From Lentisphaerota bacterium (GTDB lineage Bacteria > Verrucomicrobiota > Kiritimatiellia > RFP12 > JAAYLN01), in NCBI GenBank assembly GCA_012521875.1, contig JAAYLN010000030.1, positions 1-39,025 on the forward strand: a stretch of DNA of 39,025 nucleotides, read 5' to 3'. Positions within the stretch are counted from its first letter, which is position 1, and every line of letters starts with the position of its first letter. Below are positions 14,339-30,185 of the stretch, piece after piece. The position numbers and the translations under genes are program-made. The notes beneath the pieces were generated by a model. That model did not search any database. It had not been told where the DNA came from and was given only the letters and a program-made list of their open reading frames with translations.

Positions 14339-14367
14339 TTGACAAATTCCGGCATTTAGAATAATAT
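14339..14367 (+). promoter_or_regulatory. Sigma70-type promoter candidate for the iclR operon
   Basis: TTGACA (14339-14344), 17-bp spacer, TAATAT (14362-14367). Confidence 0.7.
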
Positions 14368-14373
14368 GCCCGT

Positions 14374-14394
14374 AAATTCCGAAATGCGGAATTT
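14374..14394. promoter_or_regulatory. Perfect palindromic operator candidate
   Basis: AAATTCCG-AAATG-CGGAATTT. The half-site AAATTCCG also occurs exactly 30 bp upstream (14344-14351) inside the promoter spacer. Confidence 0.65.
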
Positions 14395-15135
14395 TTGCGC
14401 CACGTGAACACCACGCTACAAAACGGTTTCAAGCTGCTGGAACTGCTGGCGGCCAGCGGAAGCGAAGTCTCGGTTACCGAGCTCTCCGCCCAGGCTGCGC
14501 TACCCCCCAGCAATGTCTGCCGTCTGCTCAAGACGCTGCTCCAGACCGGCTACGTCGAGCAGAGTGCGGAGACGCGGCGCTACCGTATCAGTCTCAAGGT
14601 GCTTAATCTGGCCAACGCCCGTCTCGTGAACCTCGATTTCCGGCGCATTGGACGTCCCTTTGCCATGCAGCTTGCCGAATCGCTTCAGGCACCAACCTTC
14701 CTCTCGCAACCGCTGCAGGGGCGCTCGATCATCGTTGATGTGGCCTACCCGCTAGGCCTCGTGGAGGATGCCGGCATCGTGGTCGGCAATATCCACAGTG
14801 TATTCCATAGCGCCTGCGGCAAGATCTGCGCGGCGTATGCGACCGATGAGGAACGTGCGCGGATTTTTGACGAGTTGGCAGCGGAAGGCTCGCCCGAGCC
14901 GCGCAAGACCCGGCTGGCCGAGCTCGCGCAGATCCGTGAGAAGGGGCTTGCTATCCGAGATGAGGATGGCATACTGGCCATTGCCGCGCCCCTCTTCCAG
15001 GCCGGCGGACGCTTCTGCGGTGCCCTGGGTGCCTTCCTGAAGCGGGAGACCGTTCTGGATGAGCACGCAGTGCAGGAACTCAAGCGCATTGCCGAGGCGC
15101 TCTCGTTTGGTCTCGGTTATCCTTTGTCACAGTGA
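14395..15135 (+). CDS. IclR-family transcriptional regulator (start TTG 14395 or GTG 14404)
   Basis: 246 aa; N-terminal wHTH NTTLQNGFKLLELLAASGSEVSVTELSAQAALPPSNVCRLLKTLLQTGYVEQ, C-terminal effector domain ...SACGKICAAYATDEE...AIRDEDGILAIAAPLFQAGGRFCGALGAFL. Confidence 0.92.
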   Translation: MRHVNTTLQNGFKLLELLAASGSEVSVTELSAQAALPPSNVCRLLKTLLQTGYVEQSAETRRYRISLKVLNLANARLVNLDFRRIGRPFAMQLAESLQAPTFLSQPLQGRSIIVDVAYPLGLVEDAGIVVGNIHSVFHSACGKICAAYATDEERARIFDELAAEGSPEPRKTRLAELAQIREKGLAIRDEDGILAIAAPLFQAGGRFCGALGAFLKRETVLDEHAVQELKRIAEALSFGLGYPLSQ

Positions 15136-15171
15136 TTTCACCATAACCACCAACAACACGAAAGGATCCGC

Positions 15172-15966
15172 ATGAAGACACATGATCTGAAACAAGTGGC
15201 GCGCGAGGCGGGTGCCGATCTCGTCGGCATCGCCCCGACCGACCGGTGGGCCGACTGGCCCACCGCCCGGAATCCCCGAACCATCATGCCGGCCTGCCGC
15301 TCGGTCATCGTCATCGGGCGGCGTGTGCTGCGCGGCTCCTTCCGCGGCATAGAGGAGGGCACGAACTTCTCCTCGACCTACAATCACTACGGCTTGCTAT
15401 GGAACGAGTCCCTGTTCCTCGCGCGCACCGTCCACCAGACCGCCTGCGCCATAGAGGCGGCAGGCCGCGAGGCGATGCCCCTCTTCGGCGGTGCCTCGGC
15501 CAAGGCCGAGGTGCAACTCGACACCAAGGCGCTGGCCCATGCGGCGGGCCTTGGCTCGGTCGGCAAGGGTGGCTTCTTCCTAACGCGCCAGTACGGCCAC
15601 CGCCAGCGCTTCGCGCTCATCCTCACCGATCTCGAGCTGGAAGGCGACCCCGTCGACGACCTCGACTTCTGCAAGGATTGCGACGCCTGCCTCAAGGCCT
15701 GCCCGCTCCAGGCGCTGTCGGACAAGGGCGGTGAGGTCTATGCCATCGACACCCAGCTCTGCCAGCAATGCGCCAATGGCAAGATGCAGACATTCGATTA
15801 TGCCTACGAGCGCCTCGACCGCCTGGCGGCCTCCTGCGGCCGTGCCTGCCTCGTGGCACTCGAGAACCGTATCGGGAACCGCTTCGGCACGCCCTTCCGC
15901 CGCCGTTCCGTCTGGACGCGCGACCTCGAGGGACGCTGTACCGTACACCCCCTGGACACCAAGTAG
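15172..15966 (+). CDS. QueG/reductive-dehalogenase-like 4Fe-4S protein, paralog 1
   Basis: 264 aa; REAGADLVGIAPTDRW..., FCKDCDACLKACPLQAL, then CQQC-x21-CGRAC. Confidence 0.82.
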   Translation: MKTHDLKQVAREAGADLVGIAPTDRWADWPTARNPRTIMPACRSVIVIGRRVLRGSFRGIEEGTNFSSTYNHYGLLWNESLFLARTVHQTACAIEAAGREAMPLFGGASAKAEVQLDTKALAHAAGLGSVGKGGFFLTRQYGHRQRFALILTDLELEGDPVDDLDFCKDCDACLKACPLQALSDKGGEVYAIDTQLCQQCANGKMQTFDYAYERLDRLAASCGRACLVALENRIGNRFGTPFRRRSVWTRDLEGRCTVHPLDTK

Positions 15967-15982
15967 AAAGGAACCGCTTCCC

Positions 15983-16834
15983 ATGACAGCAAAAGAACTG
16001 AAAGCGGCCGCCAAGGGTTTTGGCGCCGACCTCGTCGGTATCGCCTCCATCGACGTGCTGCGCGACCTGCCCAGCGAGATCAACCCGCTCTCGATCCACT
16101 CGGGTGCCAGATCGGTCATCGTGCTGGGGCGCAAGGTGCTGCGCGGCACCCTGCGCGGTGTCGAGCAGGGTACCGAGATGGAGAACTCCTTCCCGGAGTT
16201 CGGATTCGTCATGCTGGAGGACAACTTCCTCGCCAAGACCACCTACGATGTGGTCATCTGGATGGAGCGGCAGGGCTTCGAGGCCGTTCCGCTCTTCGCC
16301 TACGATGTGGAAAAGGATGCCGTCGGCGTGCCGGTCGCGCCCGGCAAGCCGGCACCGAACGTGATCCTGCAGTACCGCCTGCTGGCGCAGGCCGCGGGTC
16401 TGGGCGAGACGGGGCTCAACGGTCTCTTCCTGACCCCCGAGTTCGGCCCGCGCCAGCGCTTCGCCATGCTGGTGAGCGATGCCGAACTGGAGGCCGACGA
16501 GCCCTTCAAGCCGCGCATCTGCGACGACTGCGGCGCCTGCGTCAAGGGCTGCCCGCTGGCGGCGCTTGATGCCGCCACCGGCAAGCCCTACGGCCTGCTG
16601 GGCTACGAGCGCAACGTCGCGGCGCGCGACAACTCCCGCTGCCTGCGCTGCCGCAACGGCGCCATCCAGACCGGCGAGGGGCGCTTCAAGACGGTCGACC
16701 GCATGGCGGCCGCCTGCAACCGCGCCTGCATCGCCGCGCTCGAGGAGCGCGGCATCCTCGAAGAGCAGTTCGCAACCCCCTTCCGGCAGGGCCCCGCATG
16801 GGGCCGCGACCTGCTCGGCAACCCGATCGCCTAA
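15983..16834 (+). CDS. QueG/reductive-dehalogenase-like 4Fe-4S protein, paralog 2
   Basis: Trimmed from ORF 15731-16834 to the ATG after aagtagaaaggaaccgcttcccATG. ICDDCGACVKGCPLAAL, then CLRC-x21-CNRAC; clearly paralogous to 15172-15966. Confidence 0.82.
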   Translation: MTAKELKAAAKGFGADLVGIASIDVLRDLPSEINPLSIHSGARSVIVLGRKVLRGTLRGVEQGTEMENSFPEFGFVMLEDNFLAKTTYDVVIWMERQGFEAVPLFAYDVEKDAVGVPVAPGKPAPNVILQYRLLAQAAGLGETGLNGLFLTPEFGPRQRFAMLVSDAELEADEPFKPRICDDCGACVKGCPLAALDAATGKPYGLLGYERNVAARDNSRCLRCRNGAIQTGEGRFKTVDRMAAACNRACIAALEERGILEEQFATPFRQGPAWGRDLLGNPIA

Positions 16835-16846
16835 GGAGAACCCACC

Positions 16847-17980
16847 ATGTCCACCAAGAAACTCACTTCCCGGATGATCAAGGACCTCGCCCTGGAGATC
16901 GGCGGCGGGGGCGGCGGCGTGGAGGTCGTCGGCATCGCGCCGATCTCGCGCTTTTCCACGGCACCCGAGCGGATGCATCCCAAAAACATCTTCCCCGACT
17001 GCAAGTCGGTGATCTCGCTCGTGCAGCCGATCCCGCGCAGCACCTACCGCGGCATCACCGAGGGGACGCACTGGAGCAACTACACCTACTACTCCTACAA
17101 CCGCCTCAACGCGCTCTTCCGTCCGATGGTGACCAACGAGCTGGCGCGTTTCATCGAGGATCACGGCTACGAGGCCGTGCCGGTCTATCCCGGCGTTCCC
17201 GAGATCTACCCCAACAAGCCCGACCCCGTGCCGGGGCGCCCATCGCCCGAGATCACCATCAACGTGCGTATCGCGGCCATGGCCTGCGGCCTCGGCGAGA
17301 TCGGCTGGTCGAAGGTCTTCCTGCATCCGGTCTACGGGCCGCGCGTGCGCATCGGCACGATCCTGACCGACGCCGAACTCGAGCCCGATCCCCTGATCAA
17401 GCCCGGCACGATCTGCAAGCGCTGCATGCGCTGCGTGCCGACCTGTCCCGGCAACGCCATCCCGCCGCGTGACGGGCCGAAGATCACGATCAGGATCGAC
17501 GACCAGGAGTACTCGTGGGGCGATGTCCACATGGGCCGCTGCACGGCGACCCACCACGGCATCAACTACAAGGCGTCGCCCTTCCTGAAGCGCTACTTCC
17601 CCGGCTTCAATCTCGATATCACCGAGACGACGATGTCCGAGGAACTGGCCTACAAGATCACCCATTCGCTGGGTCTGGCCAACTGGTGGCGGCAGAATCC
17701 CGAGTTCCCCGGCATCCAGGGCTACCCCTACATCAAGCAGATCTCGTCCCATTGCGGCTACCTCGCGGTATGCGGTGCCAAGGGCTGCATCCGCGGCTGC
17801 ATGGAGTTCCAGGAGAAGGCCAAGAACATCGGCCAGTGCGACTTCAAGACACCGGTCTTCCCCGAGAAGCCGTGGGAACTCCCGCCGCCCGAGGAGGATG
17901 AGACCGGCGGCGTGGTCGAGAAGAAGATGCTGACCGAGCTCTACCAGGAGCCCGATCTCGATGCCGGCCAGTGGAGCTAG
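16847..17980 (+). CDS. QueG/reductive-dehalogenase-like 4Fe-4S protein, longer paralog 3
   Basis: 377 aa; VEVVGIAPISRF..., ICKRCMRCVPTCPGNAI, distinct C-terminal Cys-rich block SSHCGYLAVCGAKGCIRGCMEFQEKAKNIGQCDF. Confidence 0.82.
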   Translation: MSTKKLTSRMIKDLALEIGGGGGGVEVVGIAPISRFSTAPERMHPKNIFPDCKSVISLVQPIPRSTYRGITEGTHWSNYTYYSYNRLNALFRPMVTNELARFIEDHGYEAVPVYPGVPEIYPNKPDPVPGRPSPEITINVRIAAMACGLGEIGWSKVFLHPVYGPRVRIGTILTDAELEPDPLIKPGTICKRCMRCVPTCPGNAIPPRDGPKITIRIDDQEYSWGDVHMGRCTATHHGINYKASPFLKRYFPGFNLDITETTMSEELAYKITHSLGLANWWRQNPEFPGIQGYPYIKQISSHCGYLAVCGAKGCIRGCMEFQEKAKNIGQCDFKTPVFPEKPWELPPPEEDETGGVVEKKMLTELYQEPDLDAGQWS

Positions 17981-18029
17981 GCCACAGCACATTTGTCTGG
18001 ACACCCGTCTTTCACTCTGGAGAAAAACG

Positions 18030-18818
18030 ATGCGCAAAAGCAAGGTTCTCGCCCGGCTGCGGGCGGACAAGCCCGTCTTGATGACCAACATCAGCATGGG
18101 GGTCAACACCATGGCGGTCGAGATGGCCGGCCTCCTCGGTTTCCACGCCGTCTGGCTCGACATGGAGCACCGTTCGTTCACCTGGCGCGAAACCGAGATG
18201 CTGGTGATGGCGGCCCGCCTCGGCGATCTGGATGCGCTGGTGCGCATCCGCAAGCAGGAGGGGTATGTCACCTTCCAGCGTCCGCTGCAGGAAGGTGCGG
18301 CGGGGCTGATGGTGCCCCATGTCCGCTCGCCCGAGGAAGCCGCCCGCTGGGTCGAATACGGCAAATATGCGCCGGTCGGCCGGCGCGGCTTCGAGAACGT
18401 CATGCGCGATGCCGACATGGGGCTGGTAGATTCGGCCGACTATCTCGGGCATGCCAACCGTGAAACCTTCCTGGCGCTCCAGATCGAGGACATCGAGGCG
18501 GTCGAGGCCGTGGACGAAATCGCGGCCGTGCCCGGATTCGAAATCCTGTTCGTGGGGCCCGGCGATCTCTCGAACGGCTATGGCGTGATCGGCCAGGCCC
18601 GCCATGCCAGGGTCATGCAGGCCATCGAGCGGGTCGCGGCGGCGGCGGCGCGTCATGGCAAATGGTGGGGCCTGCCCGTGACCGGCGTCGACGAGGCCGC
18701 CCGGTTCGCCGCAATGGGCGGGCGCTTCTTCAACATCGGCAGCGACTACGGCTGGATCCGCACCGGCCTGACCCAGGTGCGCGACGCCTTTGCCGAGCGT
18801 TTCGGGCTGGATGCCTGA
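18030..18818 (+). CDS. HpcH/HpaI aldolase/citrate lyase family protein
   Basis: Trimmed from ORF 17961 to ATG after ctctggagaaaaacg. LDMEHRSFTW, GLMVPHVRSPEEAARWVEYGKYAPVGRRGF, LQIEDIEAVEAVDEIAAVPGFEILFVGPGDLS. Confidence 0.9.
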   Translation: MRKSKVLARLRADKPVLMTNISMGVNTMAVEMAGLLGFHAVWLDMEHRSFTWRETEMLVMAARLGDLDALVRIRKQEGYVTFQRPLQEGAAGLMVPHVRSPEEAARWVEYGKYAPVGRRGFENVMRDADMGLVDSADYLGHANRETFLALQIEDIEAVEAVDEIAAVPGFEILFVGPGDLSNGYGVIGQARHARVMQAIERVAAAAARHGKWWGLPVTGVDEAARFAAMGGRFFNIGSDYGWIRTGLTQVRDAFAERFGLDA

Positions 18819-18852
18819 CCGGGATTCTGTCGCCAAATAAGGATGGACAGAC

Positions 18853-20685
18853 ATGGCTTGGCAGACACAGGTGATTTTCGACAATCTGGCGCCGGAGATC
18901 GGCGAGAGCGTGGCACGCGACCTCGCCGCGGCGCGGCGGCTGGCGGATGCGCGCGGCATGGCGCCTGCCCCGCTGCGGCTCCGGCTGGTGGCGCTCGACC
19001 ACGCACATGATCCGCAGTCCGTGCCGCCCCACCGCATCGAGACCCCGGAAGCATCCGCGCCCGCCAGCCTGGCCGCCCGCTGCGAGTGGCAGAAGCGGCG
19101 CGACAGCTTCCAGATCGTGGCCGGGCCGGACGGGGTCTGGGTGATCGGCGGCGGCAGCACCGGCGTGATGTACGGCGTCAACGAGGTCATCGGCTGCCTG
19201 ACCGGCCTGATCTGGGCCTCGCAGAACGAGGACGAGGCCCTCTTCGGGCCCGTCCGCGACCTGCCGGCGGCGCCGCAGGTGCCGCGGATCGCCTACCGTG
19301 GCATGTACCGCGGCAACCGGGACTGGTTCGGACGGCAGCGGCTCAACTTCTGCATGATGGGGGCGGCCCACTGGGCCGGCGAGACGGCCGGGAGCCGCGC
19401 GGCGGCACTGGCGGAGGCCGCCCGGCGCGGCATCCATCCGACGCTGTCGGAACATGCCATGCACACCTATCTGCCGGAAGAAGTCCTGAAGGCGCATCCC
19501 GACTGGATGGGCCTGCGCGACGGCGAGCGCTGCCTGCGCGCCGCGGTCGAGCTGCCCGATTGTCCGCACCTGAACGCCGCTGCCACCATCCAGCCCTGCT
19601 ATTCCAACGCGGCGGCGCGTGGCTACATCGTGTCGCGCATGGCGGAACTGCTCGAAGCCACGCCCGGCCTGGACTTTTTCGGGATATGGCCCCACGACGG
19701 GGTCAACAACTGGTGCCAGTGCGACGCCTGCCGCGCCGTCACGCCCTTCGAGCACATGCACACCCTGGCGCGCGAGCTGCGGGCGAAGGTTGGCGGAGGC
19801 GTGGCGTTCGAGCTGATCGCCTACTCCAACATGCTTAACCTGCCGCGCAAGCCGCTGCCCCCGGCGGACAACCTCTACGCCTTCTTCTGTCCCTATCTGC
19901 GCAGCTTCCGCCATCGCATCTACGACTCCGGCGGGGCGGAGCAGGTGCTTACCGGTGTCAACTACCCCGGCCCCGACCGGATCAACCCGGTCGATGAGCG
20001 CGAATACGGGCGCATCTTTGAAAACTGGCTTCCGTTCTGGCGCGAGGCGGGCATCGTCCCGGCGGTGTTCGAGTACAATGGCAACTTTCCTGACGAGACG
20101 GGCCGCATGGATCACCAGCGCTACATTCACATCCCCGCACCGCAATTGCGCGAGGACGAGGCGTGCTGGTATGCCGCGCGCGGCGTCGGGCTGGCGATTC
20201 TCTGCGGTCAGCACGGGGAGTGGCCCGACGCCTTCCCCGATCTTGCCTGGGCCCATTCGATCTGGGGCAACGAGCCGGTGGCCGCCTTGCGCCGGCGCTA
20301 CTACACGGCGCTGGGCGGCACGCATGGCAGCCAGCTCGCCGATGCTGTCGATGGCGTATCGGTCGCGCTCAAGGCCTCAGATGCCATTCCCGAGCAGGCG
20401 CTGGGCGATCTCGACGACGTGCTGCGCCTGCTGCCCGACGGCTCGCAGGTGCAGCGCTACCGTGACTGGGCCGGCTACATCCGCCTCGGCCGCAAGGCCT
20501 GGAATTTCCTGCTGGCCGGCGACGCGGCGGCCGCGGCGGACATGGAGATCGAAATCCGCAAGTTCATCGAGGCGCGCGCGGATCGGATCCAGACCGCCGA
20601 CCTGCAGCTTAAACGCAGCATCCACCTCGAGAAGCGCGCCCGCGAACAGGCCGCCGGCCGCGCCGGGAAGGACTATGTCCTGTGA
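18853..20685 (+). CDS. DUF4838-like protein (alpha-glucuronidase-related fold)
   Basis: 610 aa; GGGSTGVMYGVNEVIGCLTG... RGMYRGNRDWFGRQRLNFCMMG... FFGIWPHDGVNNWCQCDACR... LYAFFCPYLRSFRHRIYD. Confidence 0.78.
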   Translation: MAWQTQVIFDNLAPEIGESVARDLAAARRLADARGMAPAPLRLRLVALDHAHDPQSVPPHRIETPEASAPASLAARCEWQKRRDSFQIVAGPDGVWVIGGGSTGVMYGVNEVIGCLTGLIWASQNEDEALFGPVRDLPAAPQVPRIAYRGMYRGNRDWFGRQRLNFCMMGAAHWAGETAGSRAAALAEAARRGIHPTLSEHAMHTYLPEEVLKAHPDWMGLRDGERCLRAAVELPDCPHLNAAATIQPCYSNAAARGYIVSRMAELLEATPGLDFFGIWPHDGVNNWCQCDACRAVTPFEHMHTLARELRAKVGGGVAFELIAYSNMLNLPRKPLPPADNLYAFFCPYLRSFRHRIYDSGGAEQVLTGVNYPGPDRINPVDEREYGRIFENWLPFWREAGIVPAVFEYNGNFPDETGRMDHQRYIHIPAPQLREDEACWYAARGVGLAILCGQHGEWPDAFPDLAWAHSIWGNEPVAALRRRYYTALGGTHGSQLADAVDGVSVALKASDAIPEQALGDLDDVLRLLPDGSQVQRYRDWAGYIRLGRKAWNFLLAGDAAAAADMEIEIRKFIEARADRIQTADLQLKRSIHLEKRAREQAAGRAGKDYVL

Positions 20686-30034: not shown

Positions 30035-30185
30035 AGAGCCCTGAAAGGGCGAGATATACCAGCCCAGGGCAACGCCCTGGGTAGCGAGGCAAAAACAGGC
30101 TAGCCCTGAAGGGGCGGGACATAGTCATGGAAGAGGACGTCTGTCTGCCACATGCAAGTCGTTGTCGATTGTCTTTGGTTGTCGT
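30035..30185 (+). repeat. Dispersed repeat family C, copy 4
   Basis: agccctgaaagggcgagatataccagcccagggcaacgccctgggtagc...ctagccctgaaggggcgggacatagtcatggaagaggacgtctgtctgcc. Confidence 0.85.

Follow-up and report, generated by a model that had tools for sequence, protein, structure and literature searches.

A conserved iclR-Fe1-Fe2-Fe3 gene module for class-III corrinoid reductase-like proteins in a Lentisphaerota bacterium

The Fe gene unit and its conservation

At positions 14339–20685 (+ strand) of the window, which is the 39,025-nucleotide (nt) contig stretch of a Lentisphaerota bacterium analyzed in this study, a promoter-like sequence was followed by six consecutive open reading frames (ORFs), three of which encode paralogous Fe-S proteins designated Fe1, Fe2, and Fe3. 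The sequence-only reading, an earlier interpretation of this DNA, had treated all six genes as one IclR-controlled unit. The gaps between the ORFs, which were 36, 16, 12, 49, and 34 bp, were identical to those given in that reading. The promoter was also as good as had been claimed, as it matched at 10 of 12 positions and was the best among three promoter-like sites in 7 kb, for which the chance expectation was 0.7. No terminator-like site was found in the intergenic gaps of the six genes, and the sole weak match fell within iclR. Comparisons with related loci showed, however, that the biological unit is four genes (iclR, Fe1, Fe2, and Fe3), not six. The promoter and the genes are as follows (aa, amino acid residues; RDase, reductive dehalogenase).

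14339–14367, + strand: predicted sigma70-type promoter, TTGACA-17-TAATAT, 10/12 match
14395–15135, + strand: IclR-family regulator, identified by domain matches and conserved next to the Fe genes; TTG start, GTG at 14404 also possible
15172–15966, + strand: Fe1, 264 aa, RDase-like domain with two [4Fe-4S] motifs (eight conserved Cys) and the RDase-type Arg (R146) but no catalytic Tyr
15983–16834, + strand: Fe2, 283 aa, RDase-like domain with R159 but no catalytic Tyr
16847–17980, + strand: Fe3, 377 aa, RDase-like domain with both Y84 and R168; proposed as the catalytic subunit
18030–18818, + strand: HpcH/HpaI-type aldolase (GarL-like), probably cotranscribed, outside the conserved module
18853–20685, + strand: DUF4838 protein without apparent signal peptide, probably cotranscribed, outside the conserved module

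With Fe3 as the query, a scan of genome contigs identified 80 related loci. In 73 of 78 loci, Fe2 immediately preceded Fe3, mostly with gaps of less than 60 bp. Among the five exceptions, the locus starts at a contig end in L056 and L060, and the Fe2-like ORF was misframed or broken in L069 and L091. Fe1 was directly upstream of Fe2 in 20 loci, and the complete iclR-Fe1-Fe2-Fe3 block recurred in about 20 Lentisphaeria-type loci. The Fe2-Fe3 pair extended to records named Kiritimatiellae, Planctomycetota, Armatimonadetes, Omnitrophota, and Oscillospiraceae as well as to one Bathyarchaeota metagenome-assembled genome. In the alignments, mean column identities were 57% for Fe3, 51% for Fe2, and 57% for Fe1. 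In a sample of the phylum of the window, Fe3 matches at E ≤ 1e-60 were found in 28 of 289 genomes and 22 of 153 genera. Fe3 of the window was 79–82% identical to those of genomes outside its own class and 59–61% identical to those of two genomes from its own order, G012 and G040. This patchy distribution, together with the closer similarity to the genomes outside the class, suggests that a self-contained module has been spread by horizontal transfer.

The conserved neighborhood proposed previously thus held for the iclR-Fe1-Fe2-Fe3 block but not for HpaI and DUF4838, which were in the Fe operon of none of the 80 related loci, so that neither gene was retained as a member of the system and the six-gene neighborhood was abandoned for one of four genes. 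Distant HpaI-like genes were near the Fe operon in a few related loci. Of 20 genomes with an Fe cluster, just one had an HpaI ortholog (about 80% identity), and the remaining genomes had at best relatives of 33–38% identity. The single true ortholog, in G015, stands alone, apart from the Fe cluster of that genome. HpaI was therefore ruled out as a functional partner by co-occurrence. In domain searches, the aldolase was closest to GarL-type models (6.5e-39, under the cut-off), and the product of 18853–20685 matched the DUF4838 family at 4.7e-11. Both genes are probably cotranscribed with the Fe genes as a lineage-specific 3′ extension of the Fe transcript.

In Omnitrophota-type loci, a conserved protein of about 345 aa was encoded between the Fe paralogs (L086:8034-9056, L089:1289-2323, L091:4010-5044, and L100:6012-7037), of which the L086 copy had no Pfam match. 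Weak Peptidase_U32 matches were found in four operon partners overall. Elsewhere in the window, an Acido-Lenti-1 small RNA (RF01687, 43 bits) was located at 30037–30081 on the − strand.

Family, fold and active-site residues of Fe1, Fe2, and Fe3

Fe1, Fe2, and Fe3 belong to the class-III corrinoid RDase/QueG superfamily, as the sequence-only reading had proposed. Profile searches against sequences of the Protein Data Bank (PDB) gave the same result for all three proteins, with RDases (8q4h, 4uqu, and 4ras/6zxu) and QueG as top matches. The AlphaFold models of Fe1 and Fe3 had pLDDT values of 86 and 82, respectively, and Foldseek searches with these models returned only RDases and QueG below an E value of 0.001. 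The next matches were B12 chaperones, MMACHC for Fe1 and CblD for Fe3. A corrinoid-binding nitroreductase-like fold with a ferredoxin domain, a finding that concerns the fold only, was thus found with Foldseek for Fe1 and Fe3 and with PDB profiles for all three proteins. All scores were below the curated cut-offs of the two known families. Against the RDH model TIGR02486 (cut-off, 160 bits), Fe1, Fe2, and Fe3 scored 51.7, 37.5, and 49.5 bits, respectively (range, 33–52 bits), and against the QueG model TIGR00276 (cut-off, 200 bits) the three proteins scored 43, 35.8, and 32.4 bits (range, 27–43 bits). The best RDH score in the whole genome was 58.5 bits, also under the cut-off. The genome encodes a fourth RDase/QueG-like protein of 248 aa (G000:C405:4186-4929, L146), directly followed by a nitroreductase-like gene. 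Its QueG and RDH scores were the best in the genome and still below the cut-offs.

The active-site residues were mapped against a fragment of PceA. Tyr246 of PceA is a likely proton donor, and its equivalent is essential in NpRdhA (PMC5500849). The Tyr-Arg pair is a feature of RDases. QueG lacks the equivalent of Arg305 and is defined by a strictly conserved D-Y-H motif (PMC4646009). The Tyr246/Arg305 pair corresponded to Y84/R168 in all 32 Fe3 sequences, while Fe1 and Fe2 possessed the Arg alone. The motif [SGDA]-Y-[NH] aided the assignment of the Fe3 Tyr, and in 6 of 32 Fe3 sequences this motif was DYH, as in QueG. DYH was found in none of 35 Fe2 and none of 20 Fe1 sequences. The two codons in Fe3 are as follows.

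17096–17098, + strand: Tyr84, equivalent of PceA Tyr246 and QueG Tyr101, invariant in 32/32 sequences
17348–17350, + strand: Arg168, equivalent of PceA Arg305 by alignment to the PceA fragment, absent from QueG

Similar to PceA (4uqu, 8q4h) and NpRdhA (4ras), the Fe proteins combine a nitroreductase-type corrinoid fold with a ferredoxin-like Fe-S domain, and Fe3 also keeps the residue pair of PceA. Different from respiratory RDases and NpRdhA, the Fe system has no twin-arginine translocation (Tat) signal, no RdhB membrane anchor, and no reductase fusion, and it scores below the family cut-off. A twin-Arg within the first 40 residues was found in 0 of 87 sequences, and with gaps of 12–49 bp the operon of the window is too tightly packed to contain rdhB. 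Moreover, three paralogous subunits replace the one catalytic chain of RDases, and the related enzymes with known structures act as single proteins. Similar to QueG, the Fe proteins are predicted cytoplasmic class-III corrinoid/Fe-S proteins with the same core and, in Fe3, an active-site Tyr. They differ from QueG in the DYH motif, which is not fully conserved, the presence of the Arg, the shorter Fe1 and Fe2, and the organization as operonic paralogs under probable IclR control.

In a midpoint-rooted tree, Fe3, Fe1, and the N- and C-terminal halves of fused proteins (fusN and fusC) each formed one supported group, and Fe1 branched from within the Fe2 group. The separate supported groups indicate that these are distinct paralogs of old origin. 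The fused proteins (about 740–850 aa), which occur in other loci, consist of two RDase-like domains joined in tandem, with the N-terminal half nearest to Fe3 and the C-terminal half nearest to Fe2. Such fusion supports a physical partnership of the paralogs. Examples of the fused genes are L084:6961-9177, L086:4920-7160, L100:1362-3584, and L144:9575-11938. They were often upstream of Fe2-Fe3 and at times interleaved with GH20 genes.

The IclR regulator and its predicted operators

The regulator passed the curated cut-offs of both HTH_IclR (54.3 bits vs. 22) and IclR_C (40.2 bits vs. 24). Two operator-like palindromes, both overlooked in the sequence-only reading, were located at the promoter.

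14374–14394, no strand assigned: predicted IclR operator AAATTCCGAAATGCGGAATTT, a perfect palindrome without a second exact copy in the genome (chance expectation in the window, 0.04)
14344–14364, no strand assigned: predicted second, imperfect operator copy AAATTCCGGCATTTAGAATAA, which differs from the consensus at 2 positions and overlaps both the promoter spacer and the −10 element

The motif ATTCYR-N5-YRGAAT also closely precedes iclR in 15 related loci (L039, L041–L048, L050, L052–L054, L059, and L065). In L043 and L048, both of which lack Fe1, two further operator copies precede a divergent gene for the fused double-RDase-like protein, which by comparative regulation assigns the fused protein to this regulon as well. 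The IclR link claimed earlier for the Fe-S paralogs is therefore borne out by the conserved neighboring iclR and the recurring operator, from which we infer that IclR binds the operator and represses the operon. In the genome (G000), no other exact palindrome was found as a further target, and the 11 near-matches all came from one repeat, AACTTCCGAACTTTAGAACTT. This dispersed, operator-like repeat occurs in 11 places, e.g., C1:4527-4547.

Similar to the local repressors KdgR, PcaR/PcaU, and IclR, the regulator has HTH_IclR and IclR_C domains, its gene is the first of the operon that it probably controls, and the putative palindromic operator lies over the promoter. Neither the operator ATTCYR-N5-YRGAAT nor such a target operon for IclR-type repressors was found described in the literature searched, which comprised open-licence papers only. 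With a unique operator and a local regulator, the inducer would be directly screenable.

Possible reaction and substrate

The iclR-Fe1-Fe2-Fe3 module probably encodes a locally regulated, cytoplasmic, heteromeric corrinoid/Fe-S reductase in which Fe3 is the catalytic subunit. Beyond the fold and the active-site residues, we infer the mechanism as follows. Fe3 would bind a base-off cobamide that is reduced to Co(I) via the Fe-S clusters of Fe3. As in dehalogenases, Y84/R168 would then supply a proton while a C-X bond in the substrate is cleaved reductively. In the heteromer, Fe1 and Fe2 may serve as electron-relay or structural partners, and in other lineages the fused double domain would accompany Fe2-Fe3. 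Until a small-molecule effector comes, IclR would keep the operon repressed from both operators at the promoter. The genome contains one cobalamin riboswitch and a 1179-aa B12-binding ORF of MetH size, and CobS was not found in it. The genome thus uses B12, and cobamides are probably salvaged. No cobalamin riboswitch was found in the window or in six related loci.

Several observations weigh against such a reductase. The Foldseek TM-scores were modest (0.5–0.6 for Fe1 and about 0.4 for Fe3) and the models contained no cofactor. Corrinoid binding is predicted from the fold and a few residues. The PceA fragment used for mapping Tyr246 aligned with gaps, and the first-cluster cysteines were lost from Fe2 in several lineages. 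Moreover, the operator was not seen at every iclR, e.g., that of L037, and no dedicated electron donor or corrinoid activator was conserved beside the module.

That the Fe genes are a queG with decayed duplicates is extremely improbable. All three proteins gave weak matches to the QueG profile, and no queG above the TIGR00276 cut-off was found elsewhere in the assembly by the genome-wide profile search. However, their scores were a small fraction of that cut-off, the Asp and His of the DYH motif were not conserved, the PceA-type Arg was present, all three paralogs were strongly conserved, and Fe1 and Fe3 formed old separate groups, which together ruled out this candidate. A true reductive dehalogenase, which would strip halide from a natural organohalide such as a halogenated aromatic or sugar, is improbable. 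RDases were the best sequence relatives of the Fe proteins and Fe3 possesses the Tyr/Arg pair, the Arg of which is absent from QueG, but the RDH scores were far below 160 bits, and no Tat signal, RdhB-sized space, or fused NAD(P)H reductase was found. The carriers are gut and sediment anaerobes, which are not known to be dehalogenators. It is likewise quite improbable that the Fe proteins handle corrinoids as cobamide chaperones, storage proteins, or redox activators for another B12 enzyme rather than act as catalysts. MMACHC and CblD were among the Foldseek matches, and two of the three subunits lack the catalytic Tyr, whereas MMACHC and CblD ranked below RDase/QueG, Tyr/Arg was invariant in Fe3, and Fe-S clusters are in each domain. 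Shortly downstream of Fe3, L033 (4520–6421) and L034 (11803–13704) carry a TonB-dependent receptor, with B12 receptor (BtuB) models among its sub-cut-off matches, which possibly functions in corrinoid uptake. Against corrinoid handling, however, the operon is controlled by IclR rather than a B12 riboswitch, and no B12 enzyme was conserved near the Fe genes.

The sequence-only reading had also proposed a uronate or sugar-acid pathway, which lost its main props as HpaI and DUF4838 were outside the related Fe operons. A looser link to glycans survives, as GH20-type genes adjoined Fe2/Fe3 in seven genomes (L066, G040 (L143), G012 (L144), L080, L083, L085, and L093). Moreover, NAGLU followed Fe3 in L071, and heparinase II/III-like proteins were downstream of Fe3 in L069 and L072. 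GH20 accounted for 7 of 109 operon partners, counts that are approximate because ORF calls sometimes picked antisense ORFs in GC-rich loci, and it did not appear in the list of 25 families from 125 distal genes of these loci, a list whose length could hide a count of up to 2. The A6 profile used to detect GH20 neighbors was built from near-Fe sequences. These neighbors are suggestive of a glycan link, and a glycan-derived substrate is slightly favored. A complete pathway, in which the reductase would act on a hexosamine- or uronate-derived compound freed by a co-encoded glycosidase-like protein and HpaI would cleave the resulting keto-acid, is nevertheless unlikely. In most loci no recognized glycosidase adjoined the Fe genes, the related Fe operons lacked HpaI and DUF4838, and DUF4838 was also found among the distal genes. 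Homology between the DUF4838 protein of the window and the GH20 partners was not supported, as the two profiles matched with an hhalign probability of 3.4, which is not convincing.

Returning to the heteromeric reductase, the module might, tentatively, represent a class-III corrinoid branch of its own, a third one beside the dehalogenases and QueG. In such a branch, at least two non-equivalent RDase-like domains would work as one machine in anaerobes of gut and sediment and carry out a new reduction of a compound derived from glycans or plants. No description of the gene set iclR-Fe1-Fe2-Fe3 was found in the open-licence literature searched. In summary, the superfamily assignment, the IclR link, the distinction from QueG, and a four-gene block of the sequence-only reading stood, and the membership of HpaI/DUF4838 and the uronate pathway did not. 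The four-gene module is real and conserved and is of more interest than the proposed six-gene sugar-acid operon. Class-III corrinoid enzymes themselves are known, with reductive dehalogenation and epoxyqueuosine reduction as the two established functions in the literature covered, and what is new is the multi-paralog architecture with its dedicated regulation. A conserved, separately regulated multi-paralog version across many phyla would point to further reductive chemistry in this family.

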